Shown here: positions 863 through 19,078 of the stretch, piece by piece
Layout: each line of letters opens with the position of its first letter
How positions within the stretch are numbered: position 1 is the stretch's first letter
Source: a virus
Length of the DNA: 25,252 nt
IMG/VR virus record: IMGVR_UViG_3300035698_002476
Coordinates: 1 to 25,252 of that record
Strand: one strand, 5' to 3'
Position numbers and translations under genes: made by a program
Notes under the pieces: generated by a model
Databases searched by the model: none
Seen by the model: only the letters and a program-made list of their open reading frames with translations
Told to the model about the DNA's origin: nothing

Positions 863-1446
863 TGCCACGCAAGAAGATCGCACCTCAAGACGCCGCACCT
901 CGCATCGTGTCGATGCCCCTGGCGAAGCTCACGACCCACCCATCTAACCCCAGGCGCGGCGACGTGGAGGCGATCCGCGCCTCGATCCGCGCCAATGGCT
1001 TTTATGGTGTCGTCGTCGCGCAGGCCTCGACTATGCACATCATCGCGGGCAATCACAGATTCCTCGCCGCACAAGCAGAATCCCTCGATTCGATTATGGT
1101 CCACCTCGTCGACGTCGACGACGTGCGCGCGCGCGCCATCATGGCAGCCGACAACCGGACGTCCGACCTCGGCGGCTATGATGACGAGCGCTTGCTGGCG
1201 CTGTTGGAGGAGCTGCGAGGTCATGACGCGCTGGAGGGGACCGGCTATGACGATCAGGATCTTGAGCTTCTGCTTGGCAAGCTCAATCATGAATGGAGTG
1301 ATGAGGAGCTTGAGGGCGCCGAGGTCCTGACACCAGACGACACGATGATCAGGATCGTCGCCTTTGTGGAGGGCGAGGGCGACAAGGAGGAGCTTCAACA
1401 GCGCATCGCCTCCGCGCTTGACGATCGCGTCGTGATCTTTAAATGA
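862..1446 (+). CDS. ParB-like N-terminal domain protein
   Basis: This 194-residue protein carries a ParB/Srx-type fold in residues about 14-105: an N-terminal strand with HPSNPR (26-31), a helix with ASIRANGFYGVVVA, the nucleotide-box-like IIAGNHRFLAA (60-70) and a later AADNRTSDLGGYD (95-107). The C-terminal part is acidic, and the helix-turn-helix DNA-binding domain of chromosomal ParB proteins is absent. Phage proteins of this type are variously seen as nucleases, methylase partners or regulators; which applies here cannot be decided. It overlaps the preceding gene (TGATG) and the following dpdA-like gene (ATGA), suggesting co-translation and possibly a role in packaging or in directing DNA modification. 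The link to modification is an inference from position only. Confidence 0.75.
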   Translation: MPRKKIAPQDAAPRIVSMPLAKLTTHPSNPRRGDVEAIRASIRANGFYGVVVAQASTMHIIAGNHRFLAAQAESLDSIMVHLVDVDDVRARAIMAADNRTSDLGGYDDERLLALLEELRGHDALEGTGYDDQDLELLLGKLNHEWSDEELEGAEVLTPDDTMIRIVAFVEGEGDKEELQQRIASALDDRVVIFK

Positions 1447-2309
1447 ACATCCTGTTGTCTTATCACTACTTTCAGGACCCAGCGCTGTTCGCGCAGCTCC
1501 ACGCGGCAGGCGTGCGTGTCCTTCTCGACTCCGGCGCTTACAGCGCGTTTACTCTCGGCAAGCCCATCAACCTGGAGGAGTATGCGCGCTTTGCTCGCGA
1601 GGTGCGCCCCTACATCGTGCGATGCTTTACCCTTGATGTGATCGGCGATCCCGCCCTCAGCGTCCAGCAGCAGGCTTACCTGAAGCGCTCAGGCATCAAC
1701 CCTATCCCGGTCTGGCATGATCAGCGCGGCGACATGTCGGGCCTTGATGCATTCCTGGAGGGCGAGGACTATGTTTCGCTCGGGGGCCTCGCGAGCGCCT
1801 TCGCAGGCAAGGCGAACTACCACCTCGGCAAGCACAAGCTCATGGCGCGCATCACGGGCTTTATCAAAGCTGTCAACAAGCGCGCGGGCATTCATCTGCT
1901 GGGTTATGGCAACATCAACAACATCCAAAAGCTCGGGGCGCACATCACCTCGGTCGACACCTCCACCGACAGTATGCAACGAAAATTCGGCATTGCAATG
2001 CACGTGCTCGACCCTGTGACATTGCAAGGCGTCATGTTGCCCTCCGGGCGCTCTGGGCTCAAGGAGCTGAGCAGGATCAATTTCCTGCGCACCTTTCGGC
2101 GCCTCGCCAAAGATGACAGCCTGGAGATCCCCGACCTATACAACCTCGAAAAGCAGGCCATCAATCACTATGGGGGATGCCTTATAGCCTATGGGGGATG
2201 GCTGCTGCGCTCGCGATTGCTCAAATGTCAATACTACACAGCGATTACTGGTAGATCGGATGTGGAGATGATCTTGAAGATTCACCAATTGCATACGAGG
2301 TCGACATGA
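1443..2309 (+). CDS. dpdA: DpdA-like DNA guanine transglycosylase
   Basis: This 288-residue protein resembles the TGT-fold DpdA family, which swaps guanine in DNA for a 7-deazaguanine base. Supporting motifs are LLDSGAYSAF (27-36, with D29 a candidate active-site Asp), CFTLDVIGDP (61-70, with D65), PIPVWHD (87-93), YVSLGGLA and the later SVDTST element, matching the strand-end catalytic and base-recognition loops of TGT-like barrels. The Cys-rich zinc site of tRNA TGT enzymes is not present. The start ATG overlaps the ParB-like stop, and the stop overlaps queC. Immediately following genes encode all four preQ0 synthesis enzymes, which is what makes the assignment strong. Near the C-terminus a 12-base direct repeat encodes a doubled YGG motif. 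The precise DpdA subtype and target motif cannot be read from the sequence. Confidence 0.88.
   Translation: MNILLSYHYFQDPALFAQLHAAGVRVLLDSGAYSAFTLGKPINLEEYARFAREVRPYIVRCFTLDVIGDPALSVQQQAYLKRSGINPIPVWHDQRGDMSGLDAFLEGEDYVSLGGLASAFAGKANYHLGKHKLMARITGFIKAVNKRAGIHLLGYGNINNIQKLGAHITSVDTSTDSMQRKFGIAMHVLDPVTLQGVMLPSGRSGLKELSRINFLRTFRRLAKDDSLEIPDLYNLEKQAINHYGGCLIAYGGWLLRSRLLKCQYYTAITGRSDVEMILKIHQLHTRST
2168..2200 (+). repeat. 21-bp-period direct repeat inside the dpdA-like gene
   Basis: CTATGGGGGATG occurs at 2168-2179 and again at 2189-2200, a period of 21 bases, so the frame is kept. The protein reads YGG-C-L followed by YGG-W-L seven residues later. It may be a recent small in-frame duplication near the C-terminus or a functional repeated motif. 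Confidence 0.7.
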
Positions 2310-3016
2310 AACACGAACCATTGAAGTCGCACAAGGCGCCATTGCTCGTCGTCGTCTCAGGCGGGCAAGACTCGCTGACGTGCCTCCACTGGGCGCGCAC
2401 GCAATCTGATGACGTGCGCGCCTTGAGCTTTGATTACGGTCAGCGCCATCGCGTTGAGCTGGACTGCGCAGCGCGTGCGTGCGCCAAGCTCGGCGTACCT
2501 CACGAGGTGATCAAGCTGCCCATCGCGCAGCTGGCGCCAAACAGCTCGCTGACGAGCAACGCCATCGAGGTCAGCAGCTCCACAGACGCGCGCGGCTTGC
2601 CGACGAGCTTTGTTCCAGGGCGCAATCTGGTCATGCTCACGGCAGCGGCGAGCTACGCCGCCGCGCGCGGCATCTATTGCATCATCACGGGAGTGTGCCA
2701 AACAGATGAGGCAGGTTATCCCGACTGCCGTGAGCAAACCATCGCGACGCTGTCCGACGCCATCGCGCTGGGCCTCGGCATGGAGCTTGACGACTTCACG
2801 ATCTCAACGCCGCTGATGTCCCTCACCAAGGCCCAAACGTTTCATCTGGCCGCCGAGCTTGGCGTTCTCGACCTCGTCATCGAGGACTCGCACACCTGCT
2901 ATAACGGCGACCGAACACTGCGGCATGGCTGGGGTTATGGTTGCGACGCGTGCGCTGCCTGCAAGCTCAGGGCTGAGGGCTGGCGCGCTTTCCTGAAGGA
3001 GCGGAAACGATGCTGA
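2306..3016 (+). CDS. queC: 7-cyano-7-deazaguanine (preQ0) synthase QueC
   Basis: QueC uses ATP and ammonia to turn 7-carboxy-7-deazaguanine into preQ0 in the cytoplasm. The 236-residue length matches ordinary QueC. The PP-loop SGGQDS is at residues 18-23, followed by the family's FDYGQRHRVEL segment, the VPGRN motif, TGVCQTDEAGYPDCR and the zinc-binding cysteines C198, C213, C216 and C219 (HTCYNG then GCDACAACKLR). It is not fused to a glutaminase-like domain, so it is not the Gat-QueC type that makes archaeosine-like bases. The ATG overlaps the dpdA-like stop, with GAGG 5 bases upstream, and its own stop overlaps queD by 7 bases. Confidence 0.97.
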   Translation: MKHEPLKSHKAPLLVVVSGGQDSLTCLHWARTQSDDVRALSFDYGQRHRVELDCAARACAKLGVPHEVIKLPIAQLAPNSSLTSNAIEVSSSTDARGLPTSFVPGRNLVMLTAAASYAAARGIYCIITGVCQTDEAGYPDCREQTIATLSDAIALGLGMELDDFTISTPLMSLTKAQTFHLAAELGVLDLVIEDSHTCYNGDRTLRHGWGYGCDACAACKLRAEGWRAFLKERKRC

Positions 3017-3441
3017 CCATCACGCTCACGCATCGCGTCGAAATGGCGCATCGCCTGTCGCACCCCGACGCGCCGATCAAGTGCCAGTCAATCCATGGTC
3101 ACTCATGGCGCGTCGACGTCACGCTAACCGCAAAAGAGCTTGATAGCTGCGATATGCTCATGGAGTTTGGCGTCTTCAAGCGCGCGTGGCGCGCGGTTCT
3201 CGATGCGCGTTATGATCATTGCCTGATCGTCGCGCGAGGCGATGTCGTCGCCGACGCGATTCGACGCGCGCATCCCGACGCGCGCATCACCGAGATCGAG
3301 GCGCAACCAACCACGGAATCCATCGCCCAAGACATCGCTGAACAGACCACCTACCTCCTCACGAGGTTGGGCGCTGTCGCCATTCTGGCGAGCGTTCACC
3401 TGCAAGAGACACCCTCCAACGCAGCGAGCTACCATGTATAA
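3010..3441 (+). CDS. queD: 6-carboxy-tetrahydropterin synthase QueD
   Basis: QueD converts dihydroneopterin triphosphate, made from GTP by FolE, into 6-carboxy-5,6,7,8-tetrahydropterin. This 143-residue protein shows the zinc ligands H14 (EMAHRL), H29 and H31 (IHGHSW), the nucleophilic cysteine C25 four residues before H29, the D69-H70 pair (ARYDHCL) and glutamates in TTESIAQ (E103) and LQETPSN (E133). These match the QueD/PTPS family, including the cysteine that separates QueD from mammalian PTPS. It overlaps queC upstream and queE downstream, so supply of pathway enzymes is probably translationally coupled. Confidence 0.95.
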   Translation: MLTITLTHRVEMAHRLSHPDAPIKCQSIHGHSWRVDVTLTAKELDSCDMLMEFGVFKRAWRAVLDARYDHCLIVARGDVVADAIRRAHPDARITEIEAQPTTESIAQDIAEQTTYLLTRLGAVAILASVHLQETPSNAASYHV

Positions 3442-4099
3442 GCAGCAGCCTAATCCAGACGTCGGCGAGATCGCACCACGGGGGCATTACAGCGTCTGTG
3501 AGACCTTCGTCAGCACCCAGGGCGAGGGCGTCCTCTCGGGCGTCGTGATGGTCTTTATCAGATTCGCTAAATGCAATCTGCGATGCTCGGTCGCTAATAC
3601 CGGCTTCGACTGCGACACGGACTTTCAAGTTGGTCGCATCATGACGGCGTCCGAGATCGTCAACGAGGCGCGCGCCCTGTCGCCGCGCGCGAGCTGGGTG
3701 TTGCTCACTGGCGGCGAGCCAGCACTCCAGGTTGATGAGGCGCTGATCGAGGGTCTGCGAGCCGAGGGCTTTAAGATCGCCATGGAGAGCAACGGCACCA
3801 CGCGCTTGCGCTATGAGGTCGATCACCTGACGATCTCGCCCAAGAGCGCGTGGCACACAATCCATCAACGCCAGTGTCATGAGCTGCGCATCGTGCGCAG
3901 CGCTCGACAGGCCCTCCCAAGCGGCGACGTGATACGCGACGACCTCCTCATCCAAGCCGACGCGCTCGTCCTCTCTCCGGGGTTCCTGGCGAGCGGCGCG
4001 CTTGATCCCGAGGCGTTGGCGTGGTGCGAGCAGCTCGTGATTGATCAACCCGAGTGGCGCCTGTCGATCCAGCAACACAAACTCCGGGGCGTGCGATGA
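3434..4099 (+). CDS. queE: 7-carboxy-7-deazaguanine synthase QueE (radical SAM)
   Basis: QueE is the radical SAM enzyme that contracts the pterin ring of the QueD product to give 7-carboxy-7-deazaguanine. The ATG at 3434, overlapping queD by 8 bases, gives 221 residues; a longer frame to 3242 would lie inside queD. Seen motifs are [10 protein letters not shown] (23-32), the cluster region [27 protein letters not shown] (92-99), ESNGT (118-122), SPKSAW and the C-terminal QQHKLRGVR. The iron-sulfur cysteines appear to be C47, C51 and C60, a CX3CX8C spacing instead of the standard CX3CX2C. Family variants with enlarged cluster loops exist, so activity is still expected. Confidence 0.93.
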
Positions 4100-4689
4100 G
4101 CCAAGATCCTGACGACGTCATCAAGCGGGGACTGGCAGCGCTCATCGCGCGCGTGGGCGACGACCCCGCGCGCGATGGCGTACTCAAGACCCCCGCGCGT
4201 GCGCTGGCAGCTTGGCGTGAGGTGTGCTCAGGGTACGCGCTGGACCCCGCGCAGATTCTGTCGACGAGCTTCGACCTATCTGACGTCGAGGGGACGTCAG
4301 GTTATGACGGTCTCATCCTGCTGCGCGAGATCGATTTCTGCAGCTCGTGCGAGCATCACATGCTGCCGTTTATCGGCAAGGCGCACGTTGGCTACATCCC
4401 TGGCGATGCAGGTCAGGTCGTTGGATTATCCAAGCTTGCGCGACTAGTCGACTGCTTCGCGCGCCGCCTGCAATGCCAAGAGCGCTTAACCGATCAGATC
4501 GCGCACGCGCTCGACATCCACCTCAAACCGCGCGGTGTGATCGTCGTCATCGAGGCTGAGCATTTCTGCATGCGCTTGCGCGGCGTGCGCAAGTCGACCT
4601 CGACCATGATCACAAGCTCACTGCGCGGCGTGCTGCGTGACGACCCCTCGGCGCGCGCCGAGGCCATCGCGCTGATCAAGGGCAGATGA
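4096..4689 (+). CDS. folE: GTP cyclohydrolase I (FolE)
   Basis: FolE opens GTP to dihydroneopterin triphosphate, the entry step of preQ0 synthesis. The ATG at 4096 overlaps the queE stop (ATGA) and gives 197 residues, close to the family norm. The diagnostic [10 protein letters not shown] is at 83-92 with zinc ligands C85 and H88, and the third ligand and catalytic His lie in [12 protein letters not shown] (H156, C158). GHP-type substrate features such as GYIPG and [12 protein letters not shown] are also present. A phage-borne FolE would raise flux to preQ0 independently of host folate regulation. The stop overlaps the terminase start, tying this pathway to the packaging genes. Confidence 0.97.
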
Positions 4690-11396: not shown

Positions 11397-12293
11397 ATGG
11401 CGGATGCCCTCACGCTCTACGTCAAGCGACAGCTGACGGATCAGAAGCAGCGGATTTATGATCAGCCTCTCCCCCCACTCAACGGCCTGAAGATCATGCC
11501 GCCGCGCGGCGAGGTCGCACGCGGTGCGAACATCTACACGCGTCGCGTCCTGCGCAACTTCGGGCGCGCGCAATGGATCAGCAACTCGGGCGATGACCTG
11601 CCCCTCGTGGGCGTCGGCGTCATCGAGGACGAGTACAACGTCGGCTTCTTCGGTGTGGCCTATCAATACGGCTACCAGGAGCTTGAGAACGCGATGTTCG
11701 CAGGCGAGAACATCAACGACCGCAAGGCGACGGCAGCGGCGCGCTCCATCCTCGAGTTCGCAAACGATGTCTCTTTCTATGGCAGCGCTGCGAAAAAGGT
11801 GACCGGTCTGCTGTCGATGCCATATGTCTCGCGGATTGCATATGACGGCACGATCTTCCAGCTTGGCGGGGATTCTGATGTGCAGCTCGCGGTCTTCACC
11901 GACCTGCTGCGCAAGGTGGAGGAGCAGACAAACGAGGCCGAGGTCGCATCGACGCTCTTGGTCGCATCCAGCATCTTCAATTTCATCGAGGACACGAGGG
12001 CCAACACCTTCACCAATGAGACGATTCTGGACATCCTTCTCAAGAAGGAATCTGTCACTGCCGTCATCAAGGTTCGCGAGCTCAACGCTGCCGGTCCAAA
12101 CGGCGAGGATATGATCTGCGCGGTGTCCACGGAGCCCGATCGTCTGGAGCACAACCTGCCGGACCCCATGACGATCCTTGATACGCAGCCGCGCAACCTC
12201 CTTTGGGTCACTCCCATTGTCGGCTCGACAGCAGGGGTGATCACGGAATTTCCGCTGGCGCACGCCTTCGCTGAAGTCTCACGACCCGCCTGA
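11397..12293 (+). CDS. Major capsid protein (DUF2184-like)
   Basis: This 298-residue protein is placed after the protease and decoration genes as expected for the major shell protein. It has the look of DUF2184-type capsid proteins: an N-terminal segment with PLNGLKIMPPRGEVARGANIYTRR, a WISNSGDDLPLVGV segment, FGVAYQYGYQELENAMFAG, FYGSAAKKVTGLLSMP (the loop common to HK97-fold shells of this group) and a C-terminal beta-rich domain. A good AAGGTGA ribosome binding site is 7 bases before the ATG. The gene is flanked on both sides by perfect 14-bp hairpins, in line with tuned, high expression. Confidence 0.88.
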   Translation: MADALTLYVKRQLTDQKQRIYDQPLPPLNGLKIMPPRGEVARGANIYTRRVLRNFGRAQWISNSGDDLPLVGVGVIEDEYNVGFFGVAYQYGYQELENAMFAGENINDRKATAAARSILEFANDVSFYGSAAKKVTGLLSMPYVSRIAYDGTIFQLGGDSDVQLAVFTDLLRKVEEQTNEAEVASTLLVASSIFNFIEDTRANTFTNETILDILLKKESVTAVIKVRELNAAGPNGEDMICAVSTEPDRLEHNLPDPMTILDTQPRNLLWVTPIVGSTAGVITEFPLAHAFAEVSRPA

Positions 12294-14147: not shown

Positions 14148-14674
14148 GTTATGGGCCCGACGCGACGGAGGTCGCGATGCGCGCGTGGGTCGTGGGTTGC
14201 ATCGGCGCGAGCGTGCTCGCGCCGAACCGCATCATCTACGAACAGCAAGACGGTCCTCGCCCTGCGGCGCCGTTTGCAAGTTTGCTCGCATTGGATGATC
14301 CCGAGGTCGGACGCGCCAGTGTGCAGCTGCTCGACATCGCCGCAGGCGTCGACGAGGATGGCGACCCGCTGTTTCAGGAAGCGGCCGAGCAGGATCGCAT
14401 CCTGACGATGCGCGTGACGAGCTACGGCGCGACCGCGCGCAGCATCATCGCTCGCCTCGCGAACCGCTGGCAGCTCGACAGCGAGTCGGAGCGCGCGCGC
14501 GCGTTGGGCCTCGCCATCGTCGCGGTCGGCGCGCCGAGGCGCCAGGCGCAGATCCTGTCGCAGACGACAGAGGATCGTTGGATCGTTGAGCTGCGCGTGC
14601 ATCACATCACGCGCGAAACCGCATCAACCGCTGCCGTCGAAACCGCGACGGGCAGCTATCAAGAGGTGCCCTAA
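14144..14674 (+). CDS. Tail terminator-like / neck protein (LIC_12616-like)
   Basis: The ATG at 14144 overlaps the preceding stop and gives 176 residues. The NRIIYEQQDGPRPAAPFASLLALD segment near residues 28-50 is typical of the phage neck terminator group: a helix, then a strand containing N-Q-x-x-P-x-P. The remainder alternates strands and helices (RILTMRVTSYGATARSIIARLANRW, DRWIVELRVHHITRE), as in tail terminators that cap the tail tube and sheath. It is directly followed by the sheath gene with a 1-base overlap. Confidence 0.75.
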   Translation: MSYGPDATEVAMRAWVVGCIGASVLAPNRIIYEQQDGPRPAAPFASLLALDDPEVGRASVQLLDIAAGVDEDGDPLFQEAAEQDRILTMRVTSYGATARSIIARLANRWQLDSESERARALGLAIVAVGAPRRQAQILSQTTEDRWIVELRVHHITRETASTAAVETATGSYQEVP

Positions 14675-16080
14675 TGGCGAATCAGAATGACGTCATCGAA
14701 ACCACGATCCTGATTGGCGGGACGCCTGTCGGGCGCGCTGGGTTCGGGACGGCGATCGTAGTCGACGACGCGAGCATGACCGAGCGGATTAGATTCTATA
14801 CAACGCCGGGAGCGGTCACAGCAGACCGCCTCGCAGGCGCCATCACGCAAGCGCAAGCTGAGCACCTGACGATCGCATTGACGCAAGCGCGCAAGCCTGC
14901 GCGCGTCGCAGCTGCGCGCGCAGACTTCACATTGACGGCGCAGGTGACAACTGTGACGGTCGGAGGCACGCCAGCAGCTGGCGCCTACACGATCATCATC
15001 AATGGCACGCCGTTTACATTCAGCGCGACCACTGAGACAAACGACGCGATCGCGACCGAGCTGCGCGCGCTCATCAATGCGGGCACGCAACCTGTCACCG
15101 CGTCGGGCGCGACAGCCGCTGTCGTCGTGACGAGCGATTTTGCAGGCACGCCGTTCAGCGCGACGACGAGCACTCCTGTGGGGGCGACGCTGGTTGTCGT
15201 CGTGACGACGGCTAGCGGGAACACTCTCAACGCCGAGCTTGATGCGATCCTGGGCGAGTCTGCGCAGTGGTACGGTCTGCATATGATCGCGCGTGACGCG
15301 GCGTCAATCCTGGCAGCTGCGGCGTGGGCTGAGACGAACGCGAAACTTCACATCGCGCAATCTAGTGACGCCTCGATCATCGCTGCAGGAGCTGGCGACG
15401 TGGCGAGCATCTTGAGCGCTCAGAGTCGTGCATATAGCAAGGTGTACTATTCCGCTGTGGACGCAGCTCCTGTCGCCTTTGGCGCGCTCACGCAGCAGCT
15501 CACAAGCGACCCCGACATCGAACCCGTGCCACCTATCGGGTTGATCCAGATCAGCGGCGTGACGGCGCAGGACAGCGTCATCAGCGAGACGCAGCGAACC
15601 ATCTCTCGCACCAAGAGGGTCGGGTTGTATCTGACGCTGAAGGGCGTGGCGGCGACCGACAGCTCACCGGGCGCGACGCAGATGGCAGACGGTCGGTTTG
15701 TCGACGCGCGCATCGTGGTCGACTGGCTGCGCGAGCGCACCAATGAGAACGTCGCCTCGTTTCTGTTGACGCAGCGCGCGCTCGGGCGGCGCGTCCCCTA
15801 TACCGATAAGGGTTTTCAGCAGATCGGCGCGATCGTGGAGGCGCTGCTAGAACTCGGTATCACTAATGGAAACCTCGAATCTGCGATCGATCCGCTGACG
15901 GATGATGTGATCAGCCCTCGCGTGTTCCTGCCGCTGCGCGCGACGCTGCCTCAAGCCGAGGTCGAGCAGCGGCGAATCACCTTCCAGTTTCAGGCGCTGC
16001 TTGCTGGCGCGGTCGCGCTGGCGCGCCTGCGCGGCGTGCTAACAGACGACCTCGATTTGCTGGCGCAGCTGGCGCCCTGA
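14674..16080 (+). CDS. Contractile tail sheath protein (DUF3383-like)
   Basis: The 468-residue protein follows the DUF3383 type of myophage sheath. N- and C-terminal sheath parts are clear: FYTTPGAVTADRLAG and, near the end, DARIVVDWLRERTNENVASFLLTQ..VPYTDKGFQQI, FLPLRATLPQAEVEQRRITFQFQALLAGAVALARL. A domain of about 90 residues at 88-178 (VTVGGTPAAGAYTIIINGTPF followed by ATELRALINAG and strands) looks inserted and is related to the repeats in the decoration protein. The presence of this gene is the main evidence for a contractile tail. Confidence 0.9.
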   Translation: MANQNDVIETTILIGGTPVGRAGFGTAIVVDDASMTERIRFYTTPGAVTADRLAGAITQAQAEHLTIALTQARKPARVAAARADFTLTAQVTTVTVGGTPAAGAYTIIINGTPFTFSATTETNDAIATELRALINAGTQPVTASGATAAVVVTSDFAGTPFSATTSTPVGATLVVVVTTASGNTLNAELDAILGESAQWYGLHMIARDAASILAAAAWAETNAKLHIAQSSDASIIAAGAGDVASILSAQSRAYSKVYYSAVDAAPVAFGALTQQLTSDPDIEPVPPIGLIQISGVTAQDSVISETQRTISRTKRVGLYLTLKGVAATDSSPGATQMADGRFVDARIVVDWLRERTNENVASFLLTQRALGRRVPYTDKGFQQIGAIVEALLELGITNGNLESAIDPLTDDVISPRVFLPLRATLPQAEVEQRRITFQFQALLAGAVALARLRGVLTDDLDLLAQLAP

Positions 16081-16168: not shown

Positions 16169-16591
16169 ATGCTGCAAGCGCTGAACAACATGGGGACGCT
16201 CGCGGTCCTGGTTGACGGGGTGCTGTTGCCCGTCGGGTTTGCTGACGGGAACGCCGTCGAGATCGAGTGGAACGCTCCGCTGTATAGCGACGTGGTAGGC
16301 AGCGACGGGGAGCTGCATCAAAGCACCACGGAGGATCGCACGGGTATGGTTCGCATCAGGCTCAAGAACACCTCGATCGCCTCGCGGCGAATCCTGGACA
16401 GCGTCATCAGCCGCCACGAGCTGGGCTTCACGGCTGTGTCGACGATCATCATCACGATGATCAGCACAGGCGAGAAGTATGTCGCCACAGCTGCGCGCCC
16501 CATGGATCGCCCAAACGCGGCGTTCAGCAGTGAACCCAGCGACCGAGAGTTCACTTTCCGCTGCGGGAAGATCGTCAAGTCGCCTGTCTGA
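16169..16591 (+). CDS. Tail tube protein (DUF3277-like)
   Basis: The 140-residue product lies right after the sheath gene, the usual place of the myophage tube protein. It is beta-rich: LAVLVDGVLLPVGFADGNAVEIEW, then DGELHQSTTEDRTGMVRIRLKNTS and TGEKYVATAARPMDRPNAAFSSEPSDREFTFRCGKI, in line with DUF3277-type tube proteins. GAGAGGAAG is 4-5 bases before the ATG. Confidence 0.85.
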   Translation: MLQALNNMGTLAVLVDGVLLPVGFADGNAVEIEWNAPLYSDVVGSDGELHQSTTEDRTGMVRIRLKNTSIASRRILDSVISRHELGFTAVSTIIITMISTGEKYVATAARPMDRPNAAFSSEPSDREFTFRCGKIVKSPV

Positions 16592-16628: not shown

Positions 16629-17279
16629 ATGACATTTAGGACCGGCCCTGACATCGAAAACCCATCCGCAGAAGCCAAGAATCCGTGGGGGCAACAGACG
16701 ACCTATCGCAAGGTGCTACACGGCGATACCTGGGTCACCTGTATGTGGCCTGCTGGCTATGCCTATGACGTGCTGCCGAAGCTCGTCGCGCTCTCCAGCG
16801 GACCGATCAGCATGGTCGTTGGAGTCGTGCGGTCTATGATGAGCGATGAGGGCGTCATGGCAGGAGACGTCAGCGGCGCAGAGGTGCGTGAGGGCCTGCT
16901 TGCGTTGTCGCGCGAGCTGGTCACGCAAGGCGGGAGCGAGCTGCTGAAAGACCTCCTCCAGAACACGCAGCTCCAGGCAAGCCCTGATAAGCCTGGAGGC
17001 AATGCAGGGCAGCAGTTCGACTTGATGTTTCAGGGCCGCCTCGGCCTCGCGATTGAGTTGGTGATGTGGGTGTTAGAGGTCAACCTGCGCCCTTTAGCGA
17101 GCGTCGGCAGGGGCCATCGCCTCCCCAGCCGACTGATTCAAATGTTCAAGCCGTCGCAGCCCGAATCCAAAACTACGCCTCACAGCTCAACATCGGGCGA
17201 GGCGGACAACACTTCTGGCTCAGAATCGCCAGGGAATGGAAAACGTCCGTCACGACGATCAAGGCGACGTGGACGTTGA
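16629..17279 (+). CDS. Tail assembly chaperone, short (G-like) form
   Basis: The 216-residue zero-frame product starts at an ATG following CACCGGAG. Residues 1-156 (LHGDTWVTCMWPAGYAYDVLPKLVA..., LFDLMFQGRLGLAIELVMWVLEVNLRPL) are the conserved chaperone part that binds the tape measure. After the slippery site the zero frame turns into a Ser/Arg-rich, low-complexity tail (KTTPHSSTSGEADNTSGSES...), which looks like non-selected or lightly selected sequence. Gene position between tube and tape measure matches the G/GT pair of other tailed phages. Confidence 0.85.
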   Translation: MTFRTGPDIENPSAEAKNPWGQQTTYRKVLHGDTWVTCMWPAGYAYDVLPKLVALSSGPISMVVGVVRSMMSDEGVMAGDVSGAEVREGLLALSRELVTQGGSELLKDLLQNTQLQASPDKPGGNAGQQFDLMFQGRLGLAIELVMWVLEVNLRPLASVGRGHRLPSRLIQMFKPSQPESKTTPHSSTSGEADNTSGSESPGNGKRPSRRSRRRGR

Positions 17280-17362
17280 TGGAAGTTCTTGACGCTCACG
17301 AAGTGCTTGACCTAGAGGCGGCAGCGGAGGTCTTTAGCGCACAAGCATCTAAGCGAAGGTGA
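16629..17362 (+). CDS. Tail assembly chaperone, frameshifted (GT-like) fusion
   Basis: A -1 shift at CCCTTTA (17090-17096) joins the first 156 codons to the frame read from 17096 to a stop at 17362, giving about 244 residues. The -1 part contains VQAVAARIQNYASQLNI, GGQHFWLRIAREWKTSVTTIKATWTLMEVLDAHEVLDLEAAAEVF, a helical, well-formed sequence consistent with a T-type domain. The -1 frame is closed by a stop at 17054-17056, so the shift must occur after that, and the site lies in the overlap. The GT form normally makes up a minor fraction and bridges G to the tape measure. Confidence 0.85.
17090..17133 (+). promoter_or_regulatory. Programmed -1 ribosomal frameshift signal
   Basis: CCCTTTA at 17090-17096 fits X_XXY_YYZ in the zero frame (C CCT TTA slipping to CCC TTT). 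Starting 6 bases later, GTCGGC (17103-17108) pairs with GCCGAC (17128-17133) and, past an A-A mismatch, GGGG (17110-17113) pairs with CCCC (17123-17126), loop 9 bases. A Shine-Dalgarno-like AGAGG at 17075-17079 lies 10 bases before the slippery site, the kind of upstream stimulator known for bacterial -1 shifts. Slip site, spacer and stem all fit. Confidence 0.85.
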
Positions 17363-17365
17363 TGA

Positions 17366-19078
17366 ATGTCTGTCCTGCAAAAGCTCATCAGCTCGATTGG
17401 ATTCCAGCCCGATAAAGAGTCGATCAAATTAGTTGATGGCACGCTGGAGAGGATCAAGAAGCAACTGATTACAGTCGCTGCCTTGGCTGCTCCAGCGGTG
17501 TTATTCAAGGCTGGGTTTGATCGACTCAAAGAGGTCGCTCAAACAGCAGACGGCTTCGCCAAGACCGCAAGACAGATTGACATCACCGCCGAGTCTTTAC
17601 AGGAGCTGAATTACGCCGCAGGTCTAAGCGGTGTGAAACAAGAGCAGGTCGTCGCTGCAATCAGCGGAACCACGAAGGCAGTGCGAGAGGCGCGCACGGG
17701 CAACGTGGAAATGGCGAAGTCGTTTATGCAGGTGGGCTTGAGCGCTGGCAAGCTCGCCAAGATGAAACCCGAGGAGAGGTTCGAGGCGATTGGCTTGGCG
17801 CTGCGCAACATCAAGGAGGATGGCAAGCGCGCGGTCTTGACGTCCAAGCTGCTCGGCGGCGACGGGCAAAAATTTGCCTCATTCTTTGCAGCTGGCGCCG
17901 AAGGCATTGCCAAGATGAAACAAGAGGCGCGCGACTTCGGCCTCATCATCCCAGAAGACGCGACCGTCAAAGCGGAGGCGTTCAATGACTCACTAGATAG
18001 GATCACCAAGCAGGCTAAAGCTCTTGGTGATCAATTCATGTTAAGTCTGTTACCAGCAATCCAACCGCTGTTAGATGACCTCACGAAATGGCTTGCTAGC
18101 GACTCAAAAGACTTTCAATCCTTTCTCAAACAATCGAGCATCAATGTTCAGCAATTCATCAAAGCCGTTCATGGCGGACTGTCTGACATAAGAGACTTTA
18201 CTAAATCAATGGGTGGGCTTGGTAGGACGATGGAATTCTTTGCTGTCGTCGTTGGATCTTTCGTCGCAGGCGGCGCTCTAATCAAGCTCGTCAAGGGCGC
18301 GCGCATGCTCACGATGGCAAACCTAAAGCTCGCGATGTCGACGGCAGCCGCTGCCGCGCCTTATCTGCTGATGGGCCTGCTGATCGGATTCATCATCTTC
18401 GCGCTGGAGGATCTTTACACCTGGCTTGAGGGTGGAGATTCATACTTCACGGACGCGTTCGGGCCAGCGAATCAGGAGAGTTTGAAAAAGGTTCAAGACG
18501 GGCTGCTGGTAGTGGCCGCGCTCGTGGCGATGGTCGCGCTTGCCTTCGCATCGGTGCCGCTGTTGATCGTGCTGTTGATCGCCATGCTGATCGCGCTGAT
18601 CGCCTATTGGGATGAGGTCAGCGCGACGATGTCCGAGTTCGTAGATGTCGCCGGCGCCGAGATCGGCAACCTGGCGCAGGACATCTGGCTGTGGTTGACC
18701 GGAGCGTTTAAGCGGTTCGGTACTTGGGTTTCCAAATTCTGGGATGACCTCATTGAGGGGCTGGCAAAGAAGCTGCAGAGGGTCGTGAAGCCTGCGCTTG
18801 ACGCCTATGAGAAGGTGAGCGGCTTCGCCTCGAAGGCAACCAGCACGGTGACAGGGTTGTTTAGCAACGGGCGCACAGCTGCGACGGACGCGCTCGCCGC
18901 GACCGCGCGCACGCAGAACGGCGCGCCGCGCCAGGAAGTGAAGATCAACGCGATCAACATCGAGGCCTCAAGCGTGCTCACGCCTGAGGAGCTTCAGCAA
19001 AGCGTTTCAAGCGGCGTCACAGACGCAATGCTTCGGGAAGGGCAGCGTAACTTCAGCGCGCGCGCGACGGGCACCTAA
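17366..19078 (+). CDS. Tail tape measure protein
   Basis: The 570-residue protein starts three bases after the chaperone. It is helix-rich, with ELNYAAGLSGVKQEQVVAAISGTTKAVREA... (a segment often seen at the N-terminus of TMPs), a repeated-looking hydrophobic centre with likely membrane segments at about 333-350 and 379-412, and a C-terminal amphipathic part. The N-terminal two thirds is Lys-rich. TMP length usually scales with tail length, so a short contractile tail is suggested. Part of it (about 17980-18290) is noticeably more AT-rich than the rest, hinting at mosaic origin. Confidence 0.88.
   Translation: MSVLQKLISSIGFQPDKESIKLVDGTLERIKKQLITVAALAAPAVLFKAGFDRLKEVAQTADGFAKTARQIDITAESLQELNYAAGLSGVKQEQVVAAISGTTKAVREARTGNVEMAKSFMQVGLSAGKLAKMKPEERFEAIGLALRNIKEDGKRAVLTSKLLGGDGQKFASFFAAGAEGIAKMKQEARDFGLIIPEDATVKAEAFNDSLDRITKQAKALGDQFMLSLLPAIQPLLDDLTKWLASDSKDFQSFLKQSSINVQQFIKAVHGGLSDIRDFTKSMGGLGRTMEFFAVVVGSFVAGGALIKLVKGARMLTMANLKLAMSTAAAAAPYLLMGLLIGFIIFALEDLYTWLEGGDSYFTDAFGPANQESLKKVQDGLLVVAALVAMVALAFASVPLLIVLLIAMLIALIAYWDEVSATMSEFVDVAGAEIGNLAQDIWLWLTGAFKRFGTWVSKFWDDLIEGLAKKLQRVVKPALDAYEKVSGFASKATSTVTGLFSNGRTAATDALAATARTQNGAPRQEVKINAINIEASSVLTPEELQQSVSSGVTDAMLREGQRNFSARATGT

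Follow-up and report, generated by a model that had tools for sequence, protein, structure and literature searches.

A very probable -1 frameshift site, C CCT TTA, in the tail assembly chaperone gene of a phage with a contractile tail

It is well known in tailed phages that a -1 frameshift yields a longer second version of the tail assembly chaperone (TAC), and in phage lambda the slippery heptamer is GGGAAAG. The whole virus record analysed here (25,252 bases, hereafter the window) raises the question whether the chaperone gene of its tail module is expressed in this way and, if so, at which codon the reading frame would change. The following coding regions are concerned:

14674-16080: tail sheath gene (phrog_205).
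16169-16591, plus strand: tail tube protein gene adjoining the TAC gene on its 5' side (PF11681 KPP10_Orf10, phrog_280); Pseudanabaena phage Pam3 has its 'tube' at the equivalent spot.
16629-17279, plus strand: TAC in the zero frame (G-like, or TAC-N), 216 aa (PF21822 Phage_TAC_15; phrog_3840 and phrog_1613, tail assembly chaperone).
17057-17362, plus strand: open stretch in the -1 frame; from the slip to 17362 a predicted T-like C-terminal domain of 88 aa (SERRQGP...ASKRR), assigned by the relatives' T profile and the codon score.
17366-19078, plus strand: tape measure protein gene adjoining the TAC gene on its 3' side (phrog_8125, E 2.2e-39, and other tape measure families).

The order sheath, tube, TAC, tape measure is that of a myophage structural module, and, as in G/GT-type loci, a TAC-family protein is encoded between the tube and tape measure genes. 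This protein matched PF21822 with 35.1 bits (cut-off 22) over residues 40-154, and the domain ends just short of the place where the sequence-only reading had located a frameshift signal with three elements:

17075-17079, plus strand: Shine-Dalgarno-like AGAGG, 10 nt 5' of the heptamer (anti-SD pairing -6.5 kcal/mol).
17090-17096, plus strand: slippery heptamer C CCT TTA, in phase and the sole one in the overlap; predicted junction NLRPL-SERR.
17103-17133, plus strand: possible stimulatory hairpin of 6+4 bp, 6 nt 3' of the heptamer (MFE -16.8 kcal/mol).

The description of the signal given by that reading proved exact to the base. The zero frame of the 16629-17279 ORF runs CGC CCT TTA GCG across 17090-17096, which is the X XXY YYZ phase, AGAGG stands at 17075-17079, 10 bases before the heptamer, and the spacer (17097-17102) is 6 nt long. 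The stem consists of 6 bp (17103-17108/17128-17133), a single A-A mismatch (17109/17127) and 4 bp (17110-17113/17123-17126), closing a loop of 9 nt. The -1 frame is closed at 17054, as had been claimed, and this stop (17054-17056) together with the zero-frame stop (17277-17279) limits a slip to 17057-17279.

Within this overlap C CCT TTA is the only in-phase XXXYYYZ, and CCCTTTA occurs a single time in the window with both strands counted. In-phase heptamers of this type are rare in general: they were found at 10 of 6465 codons (0.15%) in the genes of the window and at 0.32% of codons in the long ORFs of all loci studied. From these frequencies about 0.1-0.25 would be expected by chance anywhere in the 74-codon overlap, and the chance of one falling no more than one codon from the site used by relatives (see below) is 0.5-1%. 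When the amino acids R-P-L were kept fixed, 2.6% of synonymous samplings gave an XXXYYY heptamer; among the Leu codons in the window TTA is used least (12/620, 1.9%).

The locus is very probably a G/GT-type TAC gene of a contractile-tailed phage, in which a minority -1 slip at C CCT TTA would give a fusion protein. Most ribosomes would make the 216-aa zero-frame protein, whereas a minority would move back by one base at 17090-17096 and read the -1 frame to 17362. We infer a tandem slippage in which the tRNA in the P site re-pairs from CCU to CCC and that in the A site from UUA to UUU, possibly helped by AGAGG and the hairpin. The fusion, 244 aa long, would carry the conserved C-terminal domain behind the TAC domain. 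If the two forms act as gpG and gpGT of lambda do, they would cover the tape measure protein and bring in tube subunits during tail assembly.

Evidence for two joined coding regions came from profiles built from relatives. A profile made from the -1 extensions of 27 relatives matched the -1 ORF of the window with E 5e-9 (next best window ORF, E 0.25), and a profile made from their zero-frame parts matched the upstream ORF with E 2.5e-9; for both profiles the window was left out, and the 27 loci had been picked for having the heptamer, which was needed to join the parts. The alignment with the zero-frame profile stops at the window codon 17088-17090, whose last base opens the heptamer. By these matches the TAC domain belongs to the zero frame before the heptamer, and a conserved extension domain to the -1 frame beyond it.

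The -1 ORF might instead be an independent gene that starts at GTG 17066 or ATG 17279, and no fusion would then be made. GTG 17066 opens an ORF of 98 aa, and at 17277-17281 the zero-frame stop overlaps a -1 ATG (TGATG), where re-initiation might give a peptide of 27 aa. Moreover, phrog_4364, a 54-aa family of unknown function, matches the T part of Pam3 at 7.4e-6 and that of the window weakly (0.066), which suggests that such ORFs have been called as separate genes by some annotators. However, by eye no good ribosome binding site was seen upstream of GTG 17066, a start at ATG 17279 would lose most of the conserved T domain, and a separate gene fails to account for the heptamer that almost all relatives carry in phase at a single place. 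We therefore regard a separate gene as improbable: what is found is a conserved C-terminal domain in an overlapping -1 ORF that has no good start of its own.

Codon composition gave a similar picture for the distal part of the overlap. Between 17097 and 17276 the codon score was +0.11 per codon in the -1 frame against -0.33 in the zero frame; in 60-codon reference segments the minimum for true frames was 0.11 and the maximum for off-frames 0.04. From 17166 to 17276 the -1 frame is clearly coding (+8.9 against -23.6 in the zero frame), whereas in 17097-17165 the zero frame scores higher (+3.9 against -4.9). The best switch point by composition is 17165, not 17096, so composition does not locate the slip codon, whose assignment rests on the heptamer and on homology. 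The zero-frame preference in 17097-17165 is compatible with a dual-coded stretch of which the zero frame is read by most ribosomes; in the relatives the zero frame is likewise open for about 15 codons past the site.

Relatives were not found by the direct routes. The window TAC and tape measure proteins retrieved none from viral_contigs, the TAC protein retrieved none from the phages collection, and a search with the window at the DNA level gave no match. With the -1 ORF as the query, the phages collection yielded a weak match (E 0.8) in the right place of Pseudanabaena phage Pam3: the matched stretch is unannotated, lies between the chaperone gene and the tape measure gene, and is in the -1 frame with respect to the former. 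Further loci were gathered by sheath-based and Pam3-based scans. An alignment of six sequences (A1) contained no stretch conserved enough for scanning, and a Pfam sweep over 398 genomes of one phylum added few TACs, the matches L049-L051 being very weak.

In nearly all related loci a zero-frame TAC is followed by a -1 extension that reaches the tape measure gene. This bears on the possibility that a sequencing error or gene decay produced the overlap, a concern because no near relative was found for this 25,252-base virus record. The equivalent -1 overlap is present in Pam3, an isolated phage, as well as in numerous independent contigs, which makes this explanation most unlikely.

The position of the slip site was also kept. 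After removal of near-duplicates, 29 of the 31 distinct related loci had an in-phase X XXY YYZ at the equivalent place or one codon off. Towards the end of the TAC domain, at the D-F-F codons, the relatives usually have T TTT TTN in phase; among the 28 tabulated loci, the window included, there were 16 TTTTTTC, 7 TTTTTTT, 2 TTTTTTA and 1 each of TTTTTTG, CCCTTTT and CCCTTTA (T TTT TTG was seen in the genome matches L046 and L048). The sequence-only reading had called CCCTTTA a less common heptamer, and within the TAC family studied this holds, a CCC start being present in 2 of the 28. The other is the C CCT TTT of L038, which lies at the window's own register and is a close parallel to C CCT TTA. 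L038, together with the overlapping CCCTTTTTTTT of L008 and L010, shows that CCC-type sites arise naturally in this family. In an ungapped alignment of WVLEVQFRDFLGA (L011) with WVLEVNLRPLASV (window) the window site precedes the common register by one codon.

All 26 T-type loci have TTT as the P-site codon, compared with 37% TTT among Phe codons elsewhere; this comparison is partly circular because the loci were chosen by the heptamer, though only two lineages were excluded in that way, and since the loci are mutually related such selection counts overstate independence. Runs of T at the site could also cause the RNA polymerase to slip, which would place the frame change at transcription rather than translation, and the 8-T runs of L007 and L008 are of the type prone to it. 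But the window has just CCC TTT with no long homopolymer, and in most relatives a C ends the run after 6 T, so that polymerase slippage can be given hardly any weight against a ribosomal slip.

The canonical heptamer is missing in two lineages that keep the architecture. L009 (4360-4437) reads GAG GTT TTT TCC, that is G GTT TTT, in agreement with the GTTTTT motif of PMC12846349. L042 (7150-7436) and L043 retain the -1 T domain and have TCG TCT TTT GGG. As expected of a G/GT-type gene, the overlap otherwise holds an in-phase heptamer at a position kept within one codon. Taken together, sequence and homology show that two regions are coding and in which frame each is read, that the shift is in the -1 direction, and where the slip lies to about one codon.

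A dnaX-type stimulated -1 frameshift has an SD-like element 10-14 nt upstream and a conserved hairpin downstream; judged against this type, the two putative stimulatory elements behaved differently in the family. For the hairpin, the folding z-score was -3.2 for the exact chosen 31 nt and -1.2 for an untuned 40-nt segment, and equally good folding was reached by 0.8% of 31-nt segments, which ranks it with the stronger hairpins, and by 3.7% of 40-nt segments in genes. Conservation in relatives, which the sequence-only reading had named as a check, extended to the architecture, to the direction of the shift (-1) and, within one codon, to the slip position, but the hairpin, though stable in the window, had no consistent counterpart; its stimulatory role is therefore uncertain. 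An SD-like element of -4 kcal/mol or better was present at the equivalent place in 24 of 28 loci, against a background of 21% and 3 of 28 loci at an upstream control. Its summed pairing over the loci was -185, beyond all 100 synonymous-codon draws (null -129, sd 12), a sum that is overstated because the loci are related. In the TAC family the SD-like element thus seems to recur more than synonymous codon choice would give. Taken by itself, the window does not show this: its AGAGG (-6.5 against a null mean of -7.8) is no stronger than the amino acids dictate. The word 'textbook' in the sequence-only reading was too strong for a non-conserved hairpin and an AGAGG at amino-acid expectation.

A more tentative proposal, which we consider possible but would not favour, is that throughout this TAC family selection preserves the SD-like element 10-13 nt upstream more than the protein requires, that this element and not a downstream structure is the main stimulator, and that the heptamer switched from T TTT TTN to C CCT TTA through an overlapping CCCTTTTTTT with a move of one codon, the frameshift being kept throughout.

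Frameshifting at TAC genes has been described in several systems. The Adele study (2025) proposes a conserved -1 frameshift in the TAC genes of Vandenendeviridae and Andersonviridae, related myophages (PMC12846349). Like the locus of Pseudomonas phage Adele, the window has a myophage TAC before the tape measure gene, a proposed -1 shift near the 3' end and a conserved C-terminal extension, and its KPP10-family tube protein (PF11681) counts as a further likeness to the two families; it differs in having C CCT TTA instead of the conserved motif GTTTTT (PMC12846349). With the Pam3 chaperone (Pam3_15, ON014755) it shares the sheath-tube-chaperone-tape measure order, the -1 overlap, the matching slip place and a homologous T domain, whereas Pam3 has T TTT TTC and its -1 part carries no annotation in the record. 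The chaperone and its predicted -1 fusion would resemble phage lambda gpG/gpGT in serving tail assembly (reviewed in PMC5009743); the tail of lambda is non-contractile. For HK97-like TAC genes a reporter study put frameshifting at 6-7% (PMC3711429). The same CCCUUUA has been proposed for -1 frameshifting in the CP/RdRp of Giardiavirus, which unlike the window is a eukaryotic dsRNA virus (PMC8230311); that paper doubts the CCCUUUA mechanism, since the heptamer is mutated in some isolates. None of the papers covered by our literature search described CCCTTTA in a phage TAC.

The -1 TAC frameshift is therefore already known, and the window diverges mainly in the heptamer. It shows the range over which the slippery sequence of a conserved phage frameshift can change with hardly any alteration of frame, direction or position. 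It also indicates that phages such as Pam3 have an extension missing from their annotation, so that annotation is corrected more than understanding is changed. The unannotated Pam3 extension lies at 6028-6288 of L001 (about 11848-12108 of the Pam3 record), with T TTT TTC as its heptamer.

Outside the tail module, beside the terminase gene, the window carries a probable 7-deazaguanine DNA-modification cassette (1443-4689):

1443-2309: queuine tRNA-ribosyltransferase-like gene, which may be DpdA-like (phrog_887).
2306-3016: QueC.
3010-3441: QueD.
About 3425-4099: QueE.
About 4096-4689: GTP cyclohydrolase FolE.
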